A DNA stretch of 64,000 nt. Source: Luteolibacter sp. Y139 (GTDB lineage Bacteria > Verrucomicrobiota > Verrucomicrobiia > Verrucomicrobiales > Akkermansiaceae). The DNA is taken from NCBI RefSeq assembly GCF_038066715.1, contig NZ_JBBUKT010000011.1, forward strand, positions 1-64,000, in the 5' to 3' direction. Shown here one piece after another: positions 828 to 24,026 of this stretch (its first letter is position 1; every line of letters starts with the position of its first letter). The position numbers and the translations under genes are program-made. The notes under the pieces were generated by a model. It ran no database searches. It saw nothing but the letters and a program-made list of their open reading frames with translations, and was not told the origin of the DNA.

Positions 828-2723
828 CTATCGCTCAATCCCCAGCGCCTTCATCCGTGACGAGAAGGTCGATGGCGGGATGCCGACCAAGGTGGCCGCG
901 CCGTCTTTGCCGGCGATCTTTCCCTTCGCCGCTTCGAGAGCGCGCTTGAGATTGGCTCGTTCCACTTCAGCCAGCTCGGTGGCGGTGAGCACGCGGGTCG
1001 CATCGTTCTCGTTTGCCGCGGGAATCTCGACCGCTGTCACCGGCATGGCGTGACGCAGGTCGATCCGGCTGCACGGGCTGAGGATCAGGGCGCGCTCGAT
1101 GACATTCTGCAGCTCGCGGATGTTCCCGGGCCACTCATGGGCCGTGAGACGGCGGACGTCTTCCGGATGCAGCGGGTCGACACGCCGTCCCATGCGCTTG
1201 GCGAAACGTTCCTGATAAGAGGAAGCGAGCAGTGCGATGTCCTGGCCACGCTCGCGCAGTGGCGGGACGACCAGCGGGAAGACATTCAGGCGATAGTAGA
1301 GGTCCTCGCGGAAGGTTCCTTCGGCGACCATTTTTGATAGGTCGCGATTGGTGGCGGCGACGACTCGCACATCGACCTTTTGGGTCTTCGCACTGCCGAG
1401 CGGCTCGAACTCTCCTTCCTGTAGCACGCGCAGGAGCTTCGCTTGCAAGTCGAGGGGCAGCTCGCCGACTTCATCGAGGAAGAGCGTGCCGCCATCGGCC
1501 AGCGCGAAGCGGCCCTCGCGCTTCGCCACGGCACCGGTGAAGGCTCCTTTCTCGTGGCCGAAGAATTCGCTCTCGATGAGCGTGCCGGGAATGGCCGCAC
1601 AGTTGACGCGAATCAGCGGCTTGTGCTTGCGCGGGCTGGAGACGTGCACAGCGCGGGCGACGAGTTCCTTGCCGGTGCCGGTTTCGCCATTGACCAGAAC
1701 CGTGGCATCGGTGGCGGCGACTTGCTGGATCGCGGCCTTCAATTCGAGCATCCCGCGGCTCTTTCCCAATAGCTCGCCGGTGCCGGATTCCTCGGCGAGC
1801 GCATCGCGCAGATACTCGGCCTCCGAGGAAAGCCGGGCGATCTGTTGCTCGGCTTCGAGGCGTTCATCGATATTGCGCAGGATGAGCGTGAAGAAACGGT
1901 CGCCACGGCGTTCGAAGCACGAGAGCGTGACCTCGGCCGGGAAGCGGCTGCGGTCGGCGCGCAGCACGGTGAGCTGGGAGGGAATCCAGCGCTGCTGACC
2001 GGCGGCAAGATCGCGGGTGAAGCCATCCAGCATCCGGGCGCAGTCACCGGCGAGGAACCACTTGGCCTCCTGGCCGATGAGGTCTTTCGCTTCATAGGCG
2101 AAAAGTCTCTCGGCAGCCGGATTCGCGCGGACGATCTTCAGCTCGCTATCGAGCATGACGATGCCGTCCATCGCGCTCTCTAACAAAGCGGACACCTGTT
2201 CTTCGCGAGCCCGGAGAAGCTGCTCGGTTTGCAGGCGGCGGCATTCGGCGGCGGCGCGGGCGGCGAAGATCTCGAACAGGGAAACCAGCCGCGGATCGTG
2301 CGGCAACGGCTTGGTATCCATCACGGCGAGGTGGCCCATGATCTCGCCCGCGGCATCGAACAGCGGGACACCGAGGTAGCTGACCGCGTTCAGTGTCTTG
2401 AGATCGGGATCGTCCGGGTAGAGGTCGACGATGCGGTCGGGATAGTGAACGAGCTTCCTTTCCACCAGCACCGCCTCGCACGGGGTATCGGGAATGGGGT
2501 GCTCGAAGTGGTCGAGGAAAGCACCATGCAGCCAGAAGGCGTGGGCTCGCAGGCGATTGGTCTCGGGTAAATATTCCGTCACCCAGGCGCCAGCGGTGCC
2601 CATGACCTCGGCGAGATTCTTCACCAGCGCGCGGAAGAACTCCGAGCCGGTCTCCGCGACGGTGCCCTCGATCACGAGCCGGAGCGCGCGGGTATCGTCG
2701 GTGGCCATGGCGGGGGAGGTCAT
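828..2723 (-). CDS. sigma-54-dependent transcriptional activator (GAF-PAS-AAA-HTH)
   Basis: From the ATG at 2723 the product has 631 residues. An N-terminal GAF-type sensor domain (about 10-170) is followed by a PAS domain (about 175-290). A sigma-54 AAA+ domain follows, with Walker A GETGTGKE near residue 344, the sigma-54 contact loop GAFTGA near 390 and the arginine-finger region FREDLYYRLNVF. The C-terminal Fis-type helix-turn-helix ends in TFSSRMKALGI, as in FhlA/NorR-type regulators. The reading frame extends to 2846, but that would overlap the divergent gene at 2834 and adds low-complexity residues, so I chose MTSPAM at 2723. It lies upstream of, and co-oriented with, the OsmC-like gene, which has a -24/-12 promoter. 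The signal sensed by the GAF/PAS part cannot be read from sequence. Confidence 0.93.
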   Translation of the reverse strand: MTSPAMATDDTRALRLVIEGTVAETGSEFFRALVKNLAEVMGTAGAWVTEYLPETNRLRAHAFWLHGAFLDHFEHPIPDTPCEAVLVERKLVHYPDRIVDLYPDDPDLKTLNAVSYLGVPLFDAAGEIMGHLAVMDTKPLPHDPRLVSLFEIFAARAAAECRRLQTEQLLRAREEQVSALLESAMDGIVMLDSELKIVRANPAAERLFAYEAKDLIGQEAKWFLAGDCARMLDGFTRDLAAGQQRWIPSQLTVLRADRSRFPAEVTLSCFERRGDRFFTLILRNIDERLEAEQQIARLSSEAEYLRDALAEESGTGELLGKSRGMLELKAAIQQVAATDATVLVNGETGTGKELVARAVHVSSPRKHKPLIRVNCAAIPGTLIESEFFGHEKGAFTGAVAKREGRFALADGGTLFLDEVGELPLDLQAKLLRVLQEGEFEPLGSAKTQKVDVRVVAATNRDLSKMVAEGTFREDLYYRLNVFPLVVPPLRERGQDIALLASSYQERFAKRMGRRVDPLHPEDVRRLTAHEWPGNIRELQNVIERALILSPCSRIDLRHAMPVTAVEIPAANENDATRVLTATELAEVERANLKRALEAAKGKIAGKDGAATLVGIPPSTFSSRMKALGIER

Positions 2724-2833
2724 TGGCGGGAGGGTGAACGAGGGACGGCGGAGGATCAATCCGGCAGTGGGACACGCCGGTGCCCGTCGAACGGGGTTGA
2801 AAGTGGCCCGGAAATGGTGCGGTATCCGGTTGA

Positions 2834-5752
2834 ATGCGTCGCACACTGATCCTCCTCGCAGCCCTCGTGGTGCCGGTTTCCGCCGAGCCGCAGACCGGAA
2901 TGGCCAATGGCAACCCCGTGAAAGAAGCGGCTGGCAAGATGACCGTGCCGCCGGGTTTTGGCGTGGACCTCATCGCCGGTGAGCCGGACGTGGTGCAGCC
3001 GATCGCGATGTGCATCGATGTCCGGGGGCGGCTGTGGGTGGCGGAGGGGCTGACGTATCCGACGCGGGCGAAGGACGGTGAGGGGAAGGATCGCATCGTC
3101 ATATTCGAGGACGCGGATGCGAATGGCACCTTCGAGACGCGCAAGGTTTTCGCGGACGGGCTGAACCTAGTCAGCGGGATTGAGACGGGCTTCGGCGGGG
3201 TGTTCGTGGGCGCGGCGCCAAACCTGATGTTCCTGGCTGATGCGAATGGCGACGACCGCGCCGACGGGGAACCGCAGATTTTGTTAGATGGCTTTGGCTA
3301 CCAGGACACCCACGAGACGCTGAACTCCTTCATCTGGGGACCGGATGGCTGGCTCTATGGCTGCCATGGCGTCTTCACTCGTTCCAATGTTGGCAAGCTG
3401 GGCACGCCGGATGACCAGCGGGTGCCGATCAATGCGGGCATCTGGCGCTATCATCCCACCACTCAGAAGTTCGAGGTCTTCGCCTGGGGCACTTCGAATC
3501 CATGGGGGCTCGATTTCAACGACTGGGGTGAGGCCTTTTGCGAGGCCTGCGTGATCCCGCACCTGTGGCACATCATTCCCGGTGGCTACTACCAGCGGCA
3601 GGCGGGCTCGCATTTCAATCCCTTCATCTACGAGCCGCTCGAAACGATCGCCGATCACCATCACTGGGTCGGCGACATCAAGGATCATGCGCACTGGGGC
3701 AAGGAGACGCCGGTCTCGAAGGAAGTGGCGGATGCCGGTGGCGGGCATGCACACAGCGGCTTCGCGATTTGTCTGAGCGAGGAGTTCCCGAAGGAGATGC
3801 GCGGCAGTGCGCTGTTCTTCAACATCCACGGCCACCGCATGAACAATGATGTGCTGGAGCGGAATGGCTCGGGTTGGACCGGCAAGCACTCGGCCGACGT
3901 GATGCTGACGAATGACCAGTGGTTCCTCGGCGTGGCGATCGAGCCGGGGCCGGATGGCGCTCTGTATTTCACCGATTGGCACGATGAGACGAGCTGCCAT
4001 CGCACCGATCCGCTGCGCTGGGACCGGACCAATGGCCGCGTCTATCGCCTGCGCCACGGCGACGTGAAGCCGTGGCAGGGGAACATGGCGAAGCTTTCCG
4101 ATGTGGACCTCGTGAAGCTCCAGGTGGAGCACAATGAATGGGAGCTCCGCACCGCGCGCCGCGTGCTACAGGAGCGGGTCGCGAAGGGTGGTGCCGTGGA
4201 TCCGGAGGCGCGCGAGTTCCTGGTGCAGACGGTGCGCACTCATCCCGATGCGACCCGCAGGCTGCGGGCGCTGTGGTGCCTGTCGACGTGTGGATTGCTA
4301 GACCGGAGCACGTTGCCGCTGGATGATGCGGACGAGAATGTCCGTGCGTGGGCGGTGCGCCTGGCGGCGCAGTCGGAGATGAGCGTGGAGCGCAGCCACT
4401 GGCTGAAGCTCGCGTCGAAAGAGGATTCGCCGGTGGTGCTGCTTTCGCTCTGCTCGGCGCTGCCGAAATTGCCGCGCGAGCTTTCGATGGATCTCGCCCG
4501 GTGGATCGCTCCGAAGATGACAAAGGCGGATCCGAATCTCACGCGCATGTTCTGGTTCGGCTTCGAGAGCCAGGTGCCGCGGGATGAATCGCGTGCGATG
4601 GCGATTGCGCTGAGCTGCCCGGATGAGCGCTTGGTGAAATGGACGGCGCGACGGTTGGAAACTCCGAATGCCCTCGTGGACACGCTTTCGATGGCCGGGA
4701 AAAAGACGGGCCTTCTGCTGGATGCCTTGACCGGCCGATTGGATGAAAAGCCGGAGGAGCGGTTGTCGGCACCGCAGTTGGAGCTGATCTCGAATCTGCC
4801 CGGTGATGCTGCGGTGAAGGCCAAGGTTTCCGCGCTCACCGAGCGCAGCGGCGGCCAGCAGGCGATCGGCCGCCTGTGGAAGAAGGTGGAGGATCGCAAG
4901 GCCAAGGCGGCGGACCGGTTGGATTCGCTGCGCTTGCTGGCGACGTTCCTCGAAAAGAAGGATGAAGACCGCCTCGCGGGCTTGCTGGACGATCCCTTGC
5001 TGCGGCTTCCCGCGATTACGGCGGTGCCTGCGCTGCTGGATCAAGAAGCGGCGAATGACCGTGTGGCAGGCTTCACCACCGAGGAGAAGATGGCCGTTTC
5101 CCGGATCGCCGCGCGTGAGGGCAAGGGCGCGCGGCTGCTGGAGTGGCTCGCGGCGATGAAGCTGAAGCAACAAGATGTCCCTGCGGATGCCGTGGCGCGG
5201 TTGCGCGAGGTGAAGGATGCCGCGTTGAAGGAGGAAGTCGTCCAGCGCTGGGGCGCGCCCACGGCGGATGCCAGCGCGCGTCGTGCCTTAATCGAGACGT
5301 GGCAGGGCAAGCTGACTCCGGAGGTGCTTGCAAAAGCGGAGCCCGCGAAGGGCCGCGCGATCTTCGACCGCACCTGTGCCGCCTGCCACAAGCTCTTCGG
5401 CGAAGGCGGGGCGATCGGGCCCGAGCTCACCGGTGGCCAACGCGGTGAGGTCAGGCATTGGCTGGACAACGTCCTCGATCCGAACGGTCTGATTGGCCAG
5501 GGCTACGAGCTCCATCGCATCGAGAAGAACGATGGCACTTCGATCACCGGCATGCTCGCCGCGGAGAACGATGACGAGCTGATCCTGCGCATGGTCGGCG
5601 TCGAAACGCGGGTGCCGAAGAAGGACGTGAAGAGCAATACCGCCCTCGGCAATTCGATGATGCCGGAGGGTCTACTCACCGGGCTCTCGGACGACGACGT
5701 GCGGGATCTGATCGGCTACCTGATGTCGCCTGCCCAAGTGAAGAAGGAATGA
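2834..5752 (+). CDS. PVC-type secreted dehydrogenase with HEAT repeats and cytochrome c domain
   Basis: The 972-residue product starts with a signal peptide (cleavage near residue 18). It continues with a beta-propeller dehydrogenase-like domain of the PVC membrane-bound dehydrogenase type (about 25-390) containing repeated calcium-like DADANGTFE and DANGDDRADGE loops. A helical HEAT-like region follows (about 410-800), then a C-terminal cytochrome c domain with CAACH at 848-852. The family is abundant in Planctomycetes and Verrucomicrobia and is thought to oxidise sugars or other alcohols in the periplasm; the substrate is unknown. Its stop codon overlaps the start of the next gene (ATGA at 5749), so the two are probably translationally coupled. 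Confidence 0.92.
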   Translation: MRRTLILLAALVVPVSAEPQTGMANGNPVKEAAGKMTVPPGFGVDLIAGEPDVVQPIAMCIDVRGRLWVAEGLTYPTRAKDGEGKDRIVIFEDADANGTFETRKVFADGLNLVSGIETGFGGVFVGAAPNLMFLADANGDDRADGEPQILLDGFGYQDTHETLNSFIWGPDGWLYGCHGVFTRSNVGKLGTPDDQRVPINAGIWRYHPTTQKFEVFAWGTSNPWGLDFNDWGEAFCEACVIPHLWHIIPGGYYQRQAGSHFNPFIYEPLETIADHHHWVGDIKDHAHWGKETPVSKEVADAGGGHAHSGFAICLSEEFPKEMRGSALFFNIHGHRMNNDVLERNGSGWTGKHSADVMLTNDQWFLGVAIEPGPDGALYFTDWHDETSCHRTDPLRWDRTNGRVYRLRHGDVKPWQGNMAKLSDVDLVKLQVEHNEWELRTARRVLQERVAKGGAVDPEAREFLVQTVRTHPDATRRLRALWCLSTCGLLDRSTLPLDDADENVRAWAVRLAAQSEMSVERSHWLKLASKEDSPVVLLSLCSALPKLPRELSMDLARWIAPKMTKADPNLTRMFWFGFESQVPRDESRAMAIALSCPDERLVKWTARRLETPNALVDTLSMAGKKTGLLLDALTGRLDEKPEERLSAPQLELISNLPGDAAVKAKVSALTERSGGQQAIGRLWKKVEDRKAKAADRLDSLRLLATFLEKKDEDRLAGLLDDPLLRLPAITAVPALLDQEAANDRVAGFTTEEKMAVSRIAAREGKGARLLEWLAAMKLKQQDVPADAVARLREVKDAALKEEVVQRWGAPTADASARRALIETWQGKLTPEVLAKAEPAKGRAIFDRTCAACHKLFGEGGAIGPELTGGQRGEVRHWLDNVLDPNGLIGQGYELHRIEKNDGTSITGMLAAENDDELILRMVGVETRVPKKDVKSNTALGNSMMPEGLLTGLSDDDVRDLIGYLMSPAQVKKE

Positions 5753-19499: not shown

Positions 19500-20138
19500 T
19501 CAGTCCGGTTTCGTTCGTGGCGGGAAGAGTTCCCGGCACATCAGGCAGCTTTTGCCATCGCAGCCGCGGGCGGAGCAGTGCTCGCGTCCGCAGAAGATGA
19601 TGCGCAGGTGGAGGGCATTCCAACGGTCGCGGGGAAAGAGCTTTTTCAAGTCGCGCTCGACCTGTTCGACATTGCGGCCCTCGCTGAGCTTCCAGCGTTT
19701 CGCCAGCCGGTGGATGTGGGTATCGACCGGGAAGGCCGGCACGCCGAAGGCCTGCGCCATCACCACCGAGGCGGTTTTGTGGCCCACGCCGGGCAGTTCT
19801 TCCAGCGCCTCGAAGTCGGCGGGCACTTCGCCGCCATGCTTTTCCACGAGGATCTGCGAAAGATCGCGGATCGCCTGCGACTTCCGCGGCGAGAGACCGC
19901 AGGGGCGGATGATCTCCTTGATCTTCTCGACTGGCACCTTCGCCATCTTCGCCGGCGTGTCGGCCAGCTTGAAGAGGGCGGGGGTGACCGTATTCACCCG
20001 CGCGTCGGTGCACTGCGCGGACAGCAGCACGGCGACGAGCAGGGTGAAGGGATCCCGGTGATCGAGCGGGATCGGCGTTTCCGGATAGAGCTCCTCCAGC
20101 CGCCGGTCCACATGGGCGGCCCGTTCGGCGCGGGTCAT
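19500..20138 (-). CDS. nth: endonuclease III, unusual iron-sulfur cysteine spacing
   Basis: A 212-residue DNA glycosylase/AP lyase of base excision repair that removes oxidised pyrimidines. The helix-hairpin-helix ELPGVGHKTA carries the catalytic lysine, and VDTHIHR the catalytic aspartate. The E. coli [4Fe-4S] pattern is C-x6-C-x2-C-x5-C. Here the C-terminal cysteines read C-x4-C-x4-C-x4-C-x2-C (in FCGREHCSARGCDGKSCLMC), five cysteines with different gaps. Either the cluster is held differently or this is a lineage variant. The gene lies 10 bases after the 3D-domain lipoprotein gene on the same strand and may share its transcript. Confidence 0.92.
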   Translation of the reverse strand: MTRAERAAHVDRRLEELYPETPIPLDHRDPFTLLVAVLLSAQCTDARVNTVTPALFKLADTPAKMAKVPVEKIKEIIRPCGLSPRKSQAIRDLSQILVEKHGGEVPADFEALEELPGVGHKTASVVMAQAFGVPAFPVDTHIHRLAKRWKLSEGRNVEQVERDLKKLFPRDRWNALHLRIIFCGREHCSARGCDGKSCLMCRELFPPRTKPD

Positions 20139-20148
20139 GTCCGGCAGA

Positions 20149-20814
20149 TTAGCGCGAGGCGGTCGAGGCCGTGCTTGCGCTGGACATCATGCGATTGATC
20201 GCCGTGTACATCTGCGCGCAGTGAGGATACTGGGTGCGCTTCGCAAGAATCTCGGCGCTACGGGTGTAAGAGCCCCATTGAACCACGGTCAGCTCCACGT
20301 TGCGGCGACCCCAGGCGGCCATGTAGTCCTTGTTCGGGGTGTAGATGTCGACGGTATTGGTGCCGGTGAGAGCCGAGCCGTAGTCATCGACTACGAAGAG
20401 CTGCTGCATGCCCTTGATGCGGAAAACGGTGCCGACCGGATAGACGGCCCAGTCAGCGGCGGCGCTGCGGACGCGATCGGTGTAGCGGAGCTGGGTGCCG
20501 GTGGCGTTCTGCGAGCCGTATTGGAGGTGATCGGACTCGGACTGCGTGTAGGCCGTGGTGCGGACCAGACGGTTGCGCTCGGAGGGCTTGTAGAAGGCCA
20601 TGCCGTGCTTGTCCTTCGGCTTGCCGGCGGCCTGCTGGAAGAGAGCGGGCGATGGCTGGGCCGTGGTGAAGACTTCAGCTTTGCCGAAGTAGCTACCCGA
20701 AGACATGGACGAGTAGGAGCGGGACTTGGACAGGACCGTCAGGTTGGAATCCGAGGCGCAGCTGGAGAACAGCAGGGCGAGCAATGCGGCGGCGGAAGCG
20801 AGTCGGAAAGTCAT
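20149..20814 (-). CDS. 3D-domain lipoprotein, probable cell wall enzyme
   Basis: A 221-residue protein with a lipoprotein-type signal peptide (LLALLFSSC, Cys19 as the lipid site, a slightly atypical box). The C-terminal domain (about 110-200) carries VVDDYGSALTGTNTVDIYTP, the 3D motif of the double-psi barrel found in MltA-type lytic transglycosylases and Sps/YuiC proteins. A role in peptidoglycan cleavage at the outer membrane is likely; the activity is unproven. A sigma-54-type promoter (20930-20945) points at this gene across a leader of about 100 bases, and nth follows 10 bases downstream. Confidence 0.82.
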   Translation of the reverse strand: MTFRLASAAALLALLFSSCASDSNLTVLSKSRSYSSMSSGSYFGKAEVFTTAQPSPALFQQAAGKPKDKHGMAFYKPSERNRLVRTTAYTQSESDHLQYGSQNATGTQLRYTDRVRSAAADWAVYPVGTVFRIKGMQQLFVVDDYGSALTGTNTVDIYTPNKDYMAAWGRRNVELTVVQWGSYTRSAEILAKRTQYPHCAQMYTAINRMMSSASTASTASR

Positions 20815-20929
20815 GCTATTTGGTTTGGCGAGATTGATATTTAAGGAATCGCGCTATTTGAGACTCCACGTTTTACGGATCGGAGTTAGGGGCGGCAACC
20901 CAATTTTTCGCTGTTAGTTTTGGCGTCGG

Positions 20930-20945
20930 AGCGATTGCCGTGCCA
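20930..20945 (-). promoter_or_regulatory. sigma-54 promoter for the 3D-lipoprotein gene
   Basis: On the minus strand the site reads TGGCACGGCAATCGCT. It matches TGGCACG-N4-TTGCW except for one base (C for T) and has GG and GC exactly 10 bases apart. Transcription would begin near 20918, giving about 104 bases of leader before the ATG at 20814. No other -24/-12 match of this quality faces this gene. Confidence 0.6.
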
Positions 20946-21021
20946 AGTTGATCGATTCGGGCTGTCGGGCCCCGGGCGGAGGTCATTGAACCCGAAGGGG
21001 TCTGTGGAGGTTGCGGCGGAA

Positions 21022-21069
21022 CTGTCCGACAGAAGCCCCAAAACTGCCGGTGACGGGTTTGTCCCGACA
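21022..21069. promoter_or_regulatory. candidate operator or activator sites between divergent promoters
   Basis: CTGTCCGACAG (21022-21032) is a perfect palindrome around one base, and TGTCCCGACA (21060-21069) is a similar one around two bases. A further half-like CTGTCGGG lies at 20962. They sit between the two divergent sigma-54-type promoters and upstream of the plus-strand one, where an activator could bind. The protein that binds is unknown. Confidence 0.4.
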
Positions 21070-21075
21070 TTGTGA

Positions 21076-21091
21076 TGGCACCGGAGATGCT
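21076..21091 (+). promoter_or_regulatory. sigma-54 promoter for the TPR/Exb operon
   Basis: The site TGGCACCGGAGATGCT has GG (21077-21078) and GC (21089-21090) 10 bases apart. It departs from consensus at the base after CAC and at the first T of the -12 box. Transcription would begin near 21102, about 105 bases before the GTG start of the operon. Confidence 0.5.
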
Positions 21092-21143
21092 AGAATTGCA
21101 GAAAGTTCCAGCGGTTTGACCCGCGTAAGAGACAGGAAATGAT

Positions 21144-21163
21144 CCTTGGTGGTTTTACCAAGG
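21144..21163 (+). promoter_or_regulatory. leader hairpin of the TPR/Exb operon
   Basis: CCTTGGT (21144-21150) pairs with ACCAAGG (21157-21163) across a GGTTTT loop. It lies inside the predicted leader, 43 bases before the GTG start. It could affect mRNA stability or translation, or be a protein site in DNA. Confidence 0.35.
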
Positions 21164-21206
21164 GTTTCGCGTTGACGCCCGGAGATCGCGATGCCAATCG
21201 CTTGAC

Positions 21207-24026
21207 GTGCGTGTGCCCTCTCTTTTCCCCCGAAATGGGGTTTCGAAATCACTTTTGGTGGCCCTGTTTCCACTGTGCTCGCTGACGGTTTCGGCTCAGG
21301 TGGATTTGAACAAGGCGCAGACGGCGGGGATGGAAGCCTACAAGGCGAAGAATTGGCAGGTCGCCATTGAGAACCTCTCTTCGATCGTCAAGGCCAAGCC
21401 GAACGATGCCCCGGGAGGCGTTCTTTACACCCTTGGCTACGCTTACTTCTTCAATCTCAACTACCAGGAGTCGGCGACCACCTTCGAGCTCTACCTGAAA
21501 AAGTATGCGGAGAGCGAGTTCGCTCCGGAAGTCCACCTGACCCTGGGCCGGGCGCTGCTCCAGATCGACGGCAAGACGGACGAGGCGCTGACGCACCTCG
21601 CCAAGGCTTCCGAGAAGCCGGAATTCGCCGAAGAGGCACGTTTCGCGGCTGCCGACGCCTACATCAAGAAGGGCGACATGGACAAGGCCGCCCAGACGCT
21701 GAAAAACGCGATGGCTGGCAAGTCCTCCGGCGTGAGCCTGCTGCGCGCCGCGATCCAGCTGGTGGACCTCTACATCGACGGCGGCAAGCTGCCGGAAGCC
21801 ACGAAGCTGCTAGAGGATCTGGAGCGCAATCCCGGCTATCCGGACGTGATCGTGGTGGTGAACAACCGCTTTGTGAAAATCGGCGATCTCCAGCTGGAGG
21901 CCAAGGCCTACTCCGATGCACTGGAGGCCTACTCGAGCGCCCGCCCGCGCAATCAGGTGATCGCCATCCAGGTCGACCGCCTCGCGCAGTCGAAGAAGCG
22001 CAAGGATGAGCTGGAGAAGCGCATCGCCGCCGACAAGAAGGCGAACCGGCCCCTGCCGCGGAACATCGAGGAAAACGTGGCCACCCTCGGTGGCATGATC
22101 GAGAACACCGAGAAGGTGCTTGGCGAACTTCGCAACTTGGACACCTACGACGCGACCGTCCAGTACCGGATCGGCCGCTGCTATTTCAACATGGAGCGCT
22201 TCTGGCCCTCCTCCGTCGCCTTCGAGACCGTCGCGGATGAGAACCCGAAGTCCGACGACGCTGCTACGGCGCTGTTCGGTGCGATGATTTCCCAGTGGCG
22301 TCTCGAGCGCCTCGATGCGGCCGGGGTGCTGGCCAGCCGCTATCTGGACAACCATCCGGAGGGCAAGCAGGTCGAAACCGTCGCGGAGCTGAAAGCCACG
22401 CTGCTCCTCAAGACCCGCAAGTTTGATGAGGCGGTGTCCTTCCTCACGGCGTTCATCGACAAGAACCCGAATTCGCCGATCAAGCAGAAGATGATGACCT
22501 TCCGCGCGAATGCGCGCTTCGAGGGTGGCCAATACGACCAGGCGGCGACGGAATACGACCAGCTGATGAAGGACTTCGGCGGCTCGCCGGAATTCGAGGA
22601 ATACGTTTACCGCCGTGCCCTTTGCGACTTTCTCCGCAACAAGTATCAGGAGACGGTCTCGGCCTTCGACTCGTACGAAAAGAACTTCCCGAACGGGGAT
22701 TTCCTCGCTGACATCCGCTACCGCCGCGGGATCATCCAGCTGGCGCTGAAGGACTACAAGACGCTGATCCCGTCGATGCTGGCGCTTTTGCAGGACGAGA
22801 CCGCGAAGAGTTTCCTCGGCCAGATCCACACGCTGTTGGGCGACGCCTACCAGAACAGCGGGGACAACGACAATGCCGGTACCCAGTTCAAGCTGGCCGT
22901 GGAAACGGCGAATGGTGACCGCAGCGTCCTCGAATATGCGCTCGAGCAAGCCACCAACATCCTGCGGGGTGCCCGGCGGTGGGACGATCTTGAGGCCCTC
23001 TGGAAGAAGTTCCTGGCAGACAATCCGGACCACCCGATGACCCTTCGCGGTGTCTCCGAGCTCTCGAAGCTGCTGCAGCGCGCCAACAAGAAGGTGGAAG
23101 CCCGCAAGATGCTCTCGGAGCACATTCTCAAGGACATCCAGAATCCACGCTCCGAGTATGTCGAAATGCTGATCAGCCAGCTGGCCGGCATGCACGTCCC
23201 GCCGCGCTCCGTGAAGAAGGACGCGCCGAAGCCGGACATCGAGGCACTCGAAGGTGAACTGGTGGGCGACCTTGAGATTCCCGAGGATGACAAGACGCCG
23301 GCCTATGTCGCCCGCGTGCTCTTCGCCAAGTCCGAGCTGGCCCGCCAGATGGGGGACAAGGCCCGCGCCGAACGCAGCCTCGGTGCCATCGCGAACACGG
23401 CCAGCTCCAACGACCTCGGCCCGGTGCTGCTGTCGATGGTGGGCCAGTATCTCTTCGACAAGGGCGAATACGACAAGGCGACGCCGCTTTACGAGCGCTT
23501 GCGGGATGCGTTCCCGGATTCGCCGTACTCGGACGCGGCACCGGTCGGTCTCGGCAAGATTGCGCTGGCCCAGAAGGAATATCAGGACGCGGCCAAGCAG
23601 TTCGACATCGCGATCAACCGCGCTTCCGGCGACAGTACCTTGAAGGAAGCGACCTTCGGGAAGGCGCAGGCGCTGCGGGCGCTGAAGCAGCGGGAAGACG
23701 CCAAGAAGCTCTTCGAACAAATCCTCACGACCAAGGGTTGGCGCGGGATCGAACTGGCGGGCGCGAACTACGAACTCGGCGAGATCGAGTCCGAATCCGG
23801 GAACAAGGCCGGTGCCCACGCCTACTTCCAACGCGTCTACCTGTCTCACGGAGCCTATCCCCAATATGCCATCAAGTCCTACGTCCGCGCCGCCGACATG
23901 CTGCGCATGGATGGCAAGCAGGATGAGTACAAGGCGACTCTCCAGGAGCTGATCCGCAAGTATCCCGATTCCCCAGAGGCCAAGAAGGCGCGCCTCTCCG
24001 TTGGCTCGGACACAGAGTCAAAGTAA
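21207..24026 (+). CDS. large secreted TPR protein, first gene of the Exb operon
   Basis: The GTG at 21207 starts a 939-residue product with a signal peptide ending near residue 31 (LTVSAQ). Tandem tetratricopeptide-like repeats follow throughout (for example ATTFELYLKKYAESEF and AATEYDQLMKDFGGSPEF). It should be a periplasmic scaffold. In E. coli the TPR protein CpoB works with the TolQ/TolR machine, a known precedent for a TPR partner of an ExbB/D-type motor. The next gene starts 19 bases downstream. The short KKDAPKPDIEALEGELVGD stretch (about 671-689) interrupts the repeats and may be a linker. Confidence 0.88.
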   Translation: MRVPSLFPRNGVSKSLLVALFPLCSLTVSAQVDLNKAQTAGMEAYKAKNWQVAIENLSSIVKAKPNDAPGGVLYTLGYAYFFNLNYQESATTFELYLKKYAESEFAPEVHLTLGRALLQIDGKTDEALTHLAKASEKPEFAEEARFAAADAYIKKGDMDKAAQTLKNAMAGKSSGVSLLRAAIQLVDLYIDGGKLPEATKLLEDLERNPGYPDVIVVVNNRFVKIGDLQLEAKAYSDALEAYSSARPRNQVIAIQVDRLAQSKKRKDELEKRIAADKKANRPLPRNIEENVATLGGMIENTEKVLGELRNLDTYDATVQYRIGRCYFNMERFWPSSVAFETVADENPKSDDAATALFGAMISQWRLERLDAAGVLASRYLDNHPEGKQVETVAELKATLLLKTRKFDEAVSFLTAFIDKNPNSPIKQKMMTFRANARFEGGQYDQAATEYDQLMKDFGGSPEFEEYVYRRALCDFLRNKYQETVSAFDSYEKNFPNGDFLADIRYRRGIIQLALKDYKTLIPSMLALLQDETAKSFLGQIHTLLGDAYQNSGDNDNAGTQFKLAVETANGDRSVLEYALEQATNILRGARRWDDLEALWKKFLADNPDHPMTLRGVSELSKLLQRANKKVEARKMLSEHILKDIQNPRSEYVEMLISQLAGMHVPPRSVKKDAPKPDIEALEGELVGDLEIPEDDKTPAYVARVLFAKSELARQMGDKARAERSLGAIANTASSNDLGPVLLSMVGQYLFDKGEYDKATPLYERLRDAFPDSPYSDAAPVGLGKIALAQKEYQDAAKQFDIAINRASGDSTLKEATFGKAQALRALKQREDAKKLFEQILTTKGWRGIELAGANYELGEIESESGNKAGAHAYFQRVYLSHGAYPQYAIKSYVRAADMLRMDGKQDEYKATLQELIRKYPDSPEAKKARLSVGSDTESK

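Follow-up and report, generated by a model that had tools for sequence, protein, structure and literature searches.

The 392-base gap (20815-21206) that separates the ATG of a lipoprotein gene (20814, minus strand) from the GTG of a TPR protein gene (21207, plus strand) in Luteolibacter sp. Y139 harbors on its minus strand a sigma-54-like -24/-12 element, TGGCACGGCAATCGCT (20930..20945). As judged by alignment of related genomes, this match is a selected element that was kept while the flanking DNA diverged. There is about an even chance that it is a recognition element of the sigma-54 RNA polymerase, weak or atypical in sequence, which would serve the lipoprotein-nth operon alone. Sigma-54 binding, the promoter role of the minus-strand site and every start site mentioned below are predictions. 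The original prediction had read this match and a second one on the plus strand as divergent sigma-54 promoters, with two related palindromes between them. Both matches and both palindromes were found at their places within the gap. The minus-strand half of this reading was strengthened by conservation in 11/12 close genomes, by the sigma-54 geometry and by the presence of rpoN and activators, and the plus-strand half, kept in three of four genomes, is much less certain. What emerges is one conserved element that is real, and an appealing account of joint regulation with the Exb genes that finds no support.

Genes of the locus

The lipoprotein gene (20149..20814, minus strand) encodes a 3D-domain protein resembling MltA and YuiC (Pfam 3D, PF06725, E = 2.8e-9) and its N-terminus, MTFRLASAAALLALLFSSC, reads by eye as a lipoprotein signal. 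The product is a probable cell-wall-cutting enzyme of the lytic transglycosylase type. In PMC4499186, the 3D-domain protein YuiC is described as an MltA-like peptidoglycan cutter that gives an anhydro sugar product. The nth gene (19500..20138, minus strand; endonuclease III family, Pfam HhH-GPD) follows 10 bp after the lipoprotein gene and is found downstream of it in 18/18 congeners, the genome under study (G000) included; the two genes presumably form one operon. On the other side of the gap, the TPR protein gene (21207..24026, plus strand; Pfam TPR) heads a TPR/ExbB/ExbD/ExbD cluster, with the MotA_ExbB and ExbD families detected downstream. Within the close set of 12 genomes (G000 and its 11 nearest congeners), this cluster is divergent at the locus in only four (G000, G008, G011 and G010). 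For the other congeners, the neighbours upstream of the lipoprotein gene are known from open reading frames only.

Conservation of the minus-strand element

The upstream regions of the lipoprotein gene were compared at 30 loci. The pattern TGGCA[C/T]-N7-GCT begins 130-141 bp upstream of the lipoprotein ATG in 11/12 close genomes (L002-L009 and L011-L013, L002 being G000), the exception being L010 (G012). Within 300 bases of the gene, TGGCA[C/T]-N7-GC was found in none of the 18 more distant loci (6 of the genus and 12 elsewhere; 289 bases only for L023). When all gapped 5+3 patterns were ranked by support in bases -230 to -106 of the 12 genomes, TGGCA..GCT came first with 11/12; the best pattern reached at most 5 in 100 shuffles, and 3 once the element was masked. 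In the 11 genomes, the T,G,G,C,A and G,C,T columns are invariant, and the flanks mostly show an agreement of about 0.2-0.4, with three columns at 0.53-0.65. The GG at -24 and the GC at -12, with 10 bases between them, are likewise kept at the element in 11/12. The presence of the element was also mapped on a tree built from concatenated lipoprotein and nth proteins, with 25 of the 30 loci, since nth was not detected at the other five. Two changes account for its distribution, the simplest history being a single gain, on a branch supported at 99/99, and a loss in G012.

This conservation bears on the possibility that both matches are due to chance. At genome scale, TGGCAC-N7-GCW was found at 128 places in 7.1 Mb on both strands (61+67) and the reversed pattern at 141+140; since there is no excess over the reversed control, raw matches prove nothing. 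Among 114 matches examined, 80 fall inside called genes, 27 precede a correctly oriented gene and 7 are without a called gene, so that a match alone is weak evidence. These 114 include the two of the locus and some TGGCAT-N6-TGC, 28 of the 128 genome places may fall outside them, and the genes were called with a simple home-made codon score which shifted some starts. Both counts speak for chance. On the other side, about 0.007 TGGCAC-N7-GCW match is expected per 392 bases and two matches within this distance are unusual. In the window (the whole stretch of 64,000 nucleotides that was analyzed), TGGCAY-N7-GCW gives 5 matches for 2.15 expected, a number reached by 5/100 shuffles. Chance is excluded for the minus-strand match by its conservation and is still compatible with the plus-strand one; as an account of both together it is highly improbable.

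Sigma-54 machinery and control promoters in the genus

One rpoN gene is present in G000, and rpoN was found in 55 of the 57 genomes searched, G000 included. The same search gave none in G010 (72% complete) or G026, and only a partial match in G046. Seven activators are encoded in G000, two with the GAFTGA and five with the GSFTGA motif, and sigma-54 is in play in this organism. The rpoN upstream regions (17 genus genomes, G000 included, and G029, the distance to the start codon being taken from G000 only) contain one TGGCA[C/T]-N7-GC match each, with T at -14, in 18/18 cases. TGGCA[C/T]-N6-TGCT is located 41-45 bases upstream of glnK in 18/18 genus genomes. The rpoN matches agree with the self-control of rpoN by sigma-54 that is predicted for Verrucomicrobiia in PMC12316311. 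A match before a moxR gene, kept in only 2/17, provides a chance-like negative example.

Several sites and genes of G000 belong to the same subject. Clear sigma-54 promoters lie before rpoN (self-control) at C10:52360-52375 and before glnK at C3:643673-643688. A sigma-54-type match, TGGCACGGCATCTGCT (C1:41997-42012), precedes a gene which by eye resembles the ammonium transporter gene amtB. A sigma-54 activator is also encoded within the window (828-2846, minus strand); it is an AAA+ protein with GAFTGA and, by eye, a GAF-type N-terminus, about 18 kb from the minus-strand element.

Base preferences and the possibility of another regulator

The element resembles known sigma-54 (RpoN) promoters by TGGCAC and GC at the exact spacing, by its position at most 141 bp from the gene and by the presence of rpoN and activators. 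It differs from them in that T is never found at -14 and in that a conserved sigma-70-like promoter stands between the element and the gene. The base at -14 is C in 7 and A in 4 of the 11 lipoprotein sites, the base being C in G000 itself, whereas T occupies this position in 36/36 of the rpoN and glnK controls; the -12 part of the element is thus weak. C at -19 occurs in 9/11 lipoprotein sites versus 0/18 for rpoN and 3/18 for glnK. A at -17 (10/11) is also frequent at rpoN (11/18), T at -11 is present in 11/11 lipoprotein sites and G at -20 in 9/11.

For comparison, T is found at -14 in 28 of 29 intergenic Salmonella sigma-54 sites by our own count from Table 3 of PMC3844500, in a set selected by a scoring matrix and leaning therefore to the consensus. 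The exception listed there is the glnA site, TGGCACAGATTTCGCTTT, which departs from the full -24/-12 consensus only by its C at -14 and which has T at -11, as in the lipoprotein element. As far as this table goes, T at -14 is usual for sigma-54 promoters and does not strictly define them.

Enhancer-like sequences were also compared. With 4+4 patterns in the 250 bp upstream, the best support was at most 4/11 for the lipoprotein sites, 11/12 for glnK and 13/15 for rpoN (12 of the 18 glnK and 15 of the 18 rpoN regions being taken in), and patterns common to the control regions need not be enhancers. This contrast is weak, because no inverted repeat was outstanding in the controls (at most 4/12 and 4/15), because the counts come without shuffles and because the rpoN regions may include the neighbouring gene. 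The enterobacterial glnA promoter is served by NtrC enhancers. None was found upstream of the lipoprotein element, in a test with a single NtrC-like pattern that recognised none before glnK or rpoN either.

These features leave room for another DNA-binding regulator of the sigma-70-like promoter, whose site would only resemble a -24/-12 element. The absence of T at -14 (11/11), the C at -19 in 9/11, unlike the rpoN and glnK promoters, and to a weak degree the lack of a common upstream enhancer (inverted repeats of the controls being no better recognised) all point in this direction. Such a regulator has to be reconciled with an element that is asymmetric and not a dyad, with a distance to the sigma-70-like -35 that varies over 31-43 bp and with the exact GG-N10-GC spacing, which would be a coincidence. 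Nor is there a sign of a regulon: the lipoprotein-type pattern TGGCACGNNANNMGCTYY, which covers 7 of the 11 lipoprotein sites, was counted 11 times in 18 genomes, this very promoter making up 7 of the hits, against 28 for its reversed control. A regulon built on the lipoprotein motif was rejected on these counts. The sigma-54 reading is favoured by the invariant TGGCA/GCT spacing, the tree, rpoN, the activators, the same geometry at rpoN and glnK and the variable -35 distance, and the C at -14 of the Salmonella glnA site is in line with it. Because of the C or A at -14, the C at -19, the weak enhancer contrast and the lack of a wider regulon, we place sigma-54 recognition at an evenly balanced level of belief, and regard another regulator as a serious possibility with odds somewhat against it.

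The putative sigma-70-like promoter of the lipoprotein-nth operon

Between the element and the lipoprotein gene, TTGCCG-N17-TAAAAC (20870..20898, minus strand) is, judging by its sequence and conservation, a putative promoter of the sigma-70 type for the operon. TTGCC is present in 12/12 aligned close genomes; ten of them show a clear -10-like TA[AG]AA, and L009 and L011 have a degenerate form of it. On inspection by eye, several upstream regions of more distant loci carry similar sites. A CTAAC box (20913..20917, minus strand) lies 19-20 bp upstream of the -35-like TTGCC in 12/12 close genomes and, by eye, also occurs in several more distant congeners. While the CTAAC distance is constant, the sigma-54-like element is separated from TTGCC by 31-37 bases in ten genomes and by 43 in one, and this variation is more easily reconciled with an element acting on its own than with an activator site of fixed phase. 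The geometry of the -24/-12 element itself places its predicted start site at about 20919.

The lipoprotein-nth operon would be transcribed from the sigma-70-like promoter with its CTAAC box close to the gene. If sigma-54 does recognise the minus-strand element, which is found in one clade 31-43 bp further upstream, it would add condition-dependent transcription of a wall gene. Alternatively, a closed sigma-54 polymerase could sit beside the sigma-70 promoter. A bolder version, which we hold to be rather unlikely, is that these elements represent a distinct class of sigma-54 sites, in which T at -14 is systematically avoided, no enhancer lies nearby and selection acts on a site upstream of a sigma-70 promoter. 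Such a site would be either a weakly activated promoter or a docking site through which closed sigma-54 polymerase modulates a wall hydrolase's housekeeping promoter.

E. coli has sigma-54 sites by which a nearby sigma-70 promoter is repressed (PMC4551910), and they are comparable in that they too place a sigma-54-like site near a sigma-70-like promoter. The E. coli classes which are described there as binding competition overlap the sigma-70 polymerase footprint, whereas the lipoprotein site is located upstream and at a varying distance. Sigma-54 was proposed to be a frequent controller of the bacterial cell exterior (PMC3162934, main text), and a wall-related lipoprotein under a possible sigma-54 element fits this theme; neither "verrucomicrob" nor "transglycosylase" occurs in that main text. 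Among the literature matches listed for sigma-54 in Verrucomicrobia or Luteolibacter, no study of this promoter was recognised by title. If the sigma-54 reading is true, RpoN would govern a DNA-repair gene together with a lipoprotein that probably cuts peptidoglycan, in a family for which the same listings showed no work on a sigma-54 promoter, and the eleven sites would form a natural set for asking about the role of T at -14.

The plus-strand match and the palindromes

The plus-strand -24/-12 match, TGGCACCGGAGATGCT (21076..21091), is of uncertain function. It corresponds to TGGCACTGGAGATGCT in G008 and TGGCACTGGAGTCGCG in G011 and is absent in G010, being thus kept in three of the four genomes with this gene arrangement. 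Position -14 is T in G000 and G008, like in the control promoters, and G011 has C at -14 and G at -11. The match overlaps a 37-base block, GTGACGGG.TTGTCCCGACA.TGTG.TGGCAC.GGAG (21050..21086, plus strand), in which 33/37 columns are invariant in G000, G008 and G011. Palindrome 2, TGTCCCGACA (21060-21069), falls inside this block, which extends for 26 bases ahead of the -24 part and tails off at the -12 part. A search for the core of the block that tolerated up to 3 mismatches retrieved this locus alone, and in 3 of 18 congeners. Of the three relatives examined, G008 and G011 have kept palindrome 2 and G010 lacks it. Palindrome 1, CTGTCCGACAG (21022..21032), which lies between the two matches, is kept in none of the three. 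As a pair, the two palindromes are not conserved. A small block between the two matches, GGAGGTCATTGAACC (20978..20992), has 13/15 invariant columns in the same three genomes.

By count, with up to one mismatch allowed, the palindromes are not above chance (3 for 7.6 expected, and 4 for 2.25 expected, the latter reached by 17/100 shuffles). The 20-base core surrounding palindrome 2 recurs in G000 exactly at a single place and with 3 mismatches at three more. On this count, and as the 37-base block is unique to this locus in 3/18 congeners, the palindromes were rejected as a regulon signal.

The shape of the conserved block is compatible with an operator, in which the dyad TGTCCCGACA would be bound by a protein that represses or activates the TPR operon and the adjoining TGGCAC would be incidental. 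The extension of the block well upstream of the -24 match, its fading at the -12 part and the absence of its core elsewhere in the 18 congeners would be explained in this way. Against it, the block is known from three closely related species only; we regard this explanation as possible, on the unlikely side. The 84 four-fold sites of G000, G008 and G011 are 55% identical three ways; the three species being closely related, conservation among them is modest evidence. If the plus-strand match is a feature at all, it is a young one, limited to three species.

The proposed joint control of the two operons

In a fuller form of the divergent arrangement, the wall lipoprotein and the Exb-type operon would be controlled together by two sigma-54 promoters and by a dimeric regulator sitting on both palindromes. 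This form can draw on the retention of both matches and TGTCCCGACA in G000, G008 and G011, and on the T at -14 of the plus-strand match in G000 and G008. The force of this retention is modest, given the four-fold identity of the three species. CTGTCCGACAG is not conserved, and G010 lacks the plus-strand match and palindrome 2 despite the same divergent genes. In seven congeners, the minus-strand element is present with no TPR gene found in the 1.4-1.5 kb upstream. We judge this arrangement very unlikely.

The idea of one shared control region is not supported, in view of the seven congeners with the element and no TPR neighbour found, and of G010, with the TPR neighbour and neither the plus-strand match nor palindrome 2. 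As the TPR gene is divergent in only 4/12 close genomes, the minus-strand element belongs to the lipoprotein-nth operon and not to a shared region. It goes with the lipoprotein gene, and the proposed co-regulation of the lipoprotein (with nth) and the Exb operon is not supported; a link between the TPR/Exb machine and wall remodelling does not follow. Shared control of the two operons was rejected, since the element exists without its partner and palindrome 1 is not conserved. Free variation among close relatives was observed for CTGTCCGACAG, was not observed for the minus-strand match, and was intermediate for the plus-strand match and TGTCCCGACA. The facing arrangement of the two matches in three species may be a matter of chance or a late addition.

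Probable promoter of the TPR/Exb-type operon

Directly before the TPR start codon, a putative sigma-70-like promoter, TTGACG-N17-CAATCG (21172..21200, plus strand), was recognised; its -10 is poor. This proximal site is kept in G000, G008 and G011, and TTGACG is present in G010 too. TTGACG and the bases that follow it include the most conserved stretch of the region in the first three genomes. TTGACA was also found close to the start in five other relatives of the TPR gene (L037 and L041-L044). From these sequences, the Exb-type operon is more likely to be run from the TTGACG-type site adjoining the start codon.

By eye, a clear Shine-Dalgarno sequence is mostly missing in this part of the window (8 of 9 genes between 16545 and 30334). 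Its absence before the TPR GTG was dropped as an argument, eight of the nine genes being in the same situation. Translation of the TPR gene may begin on a leaderless message whose 5' end is near the GTG.
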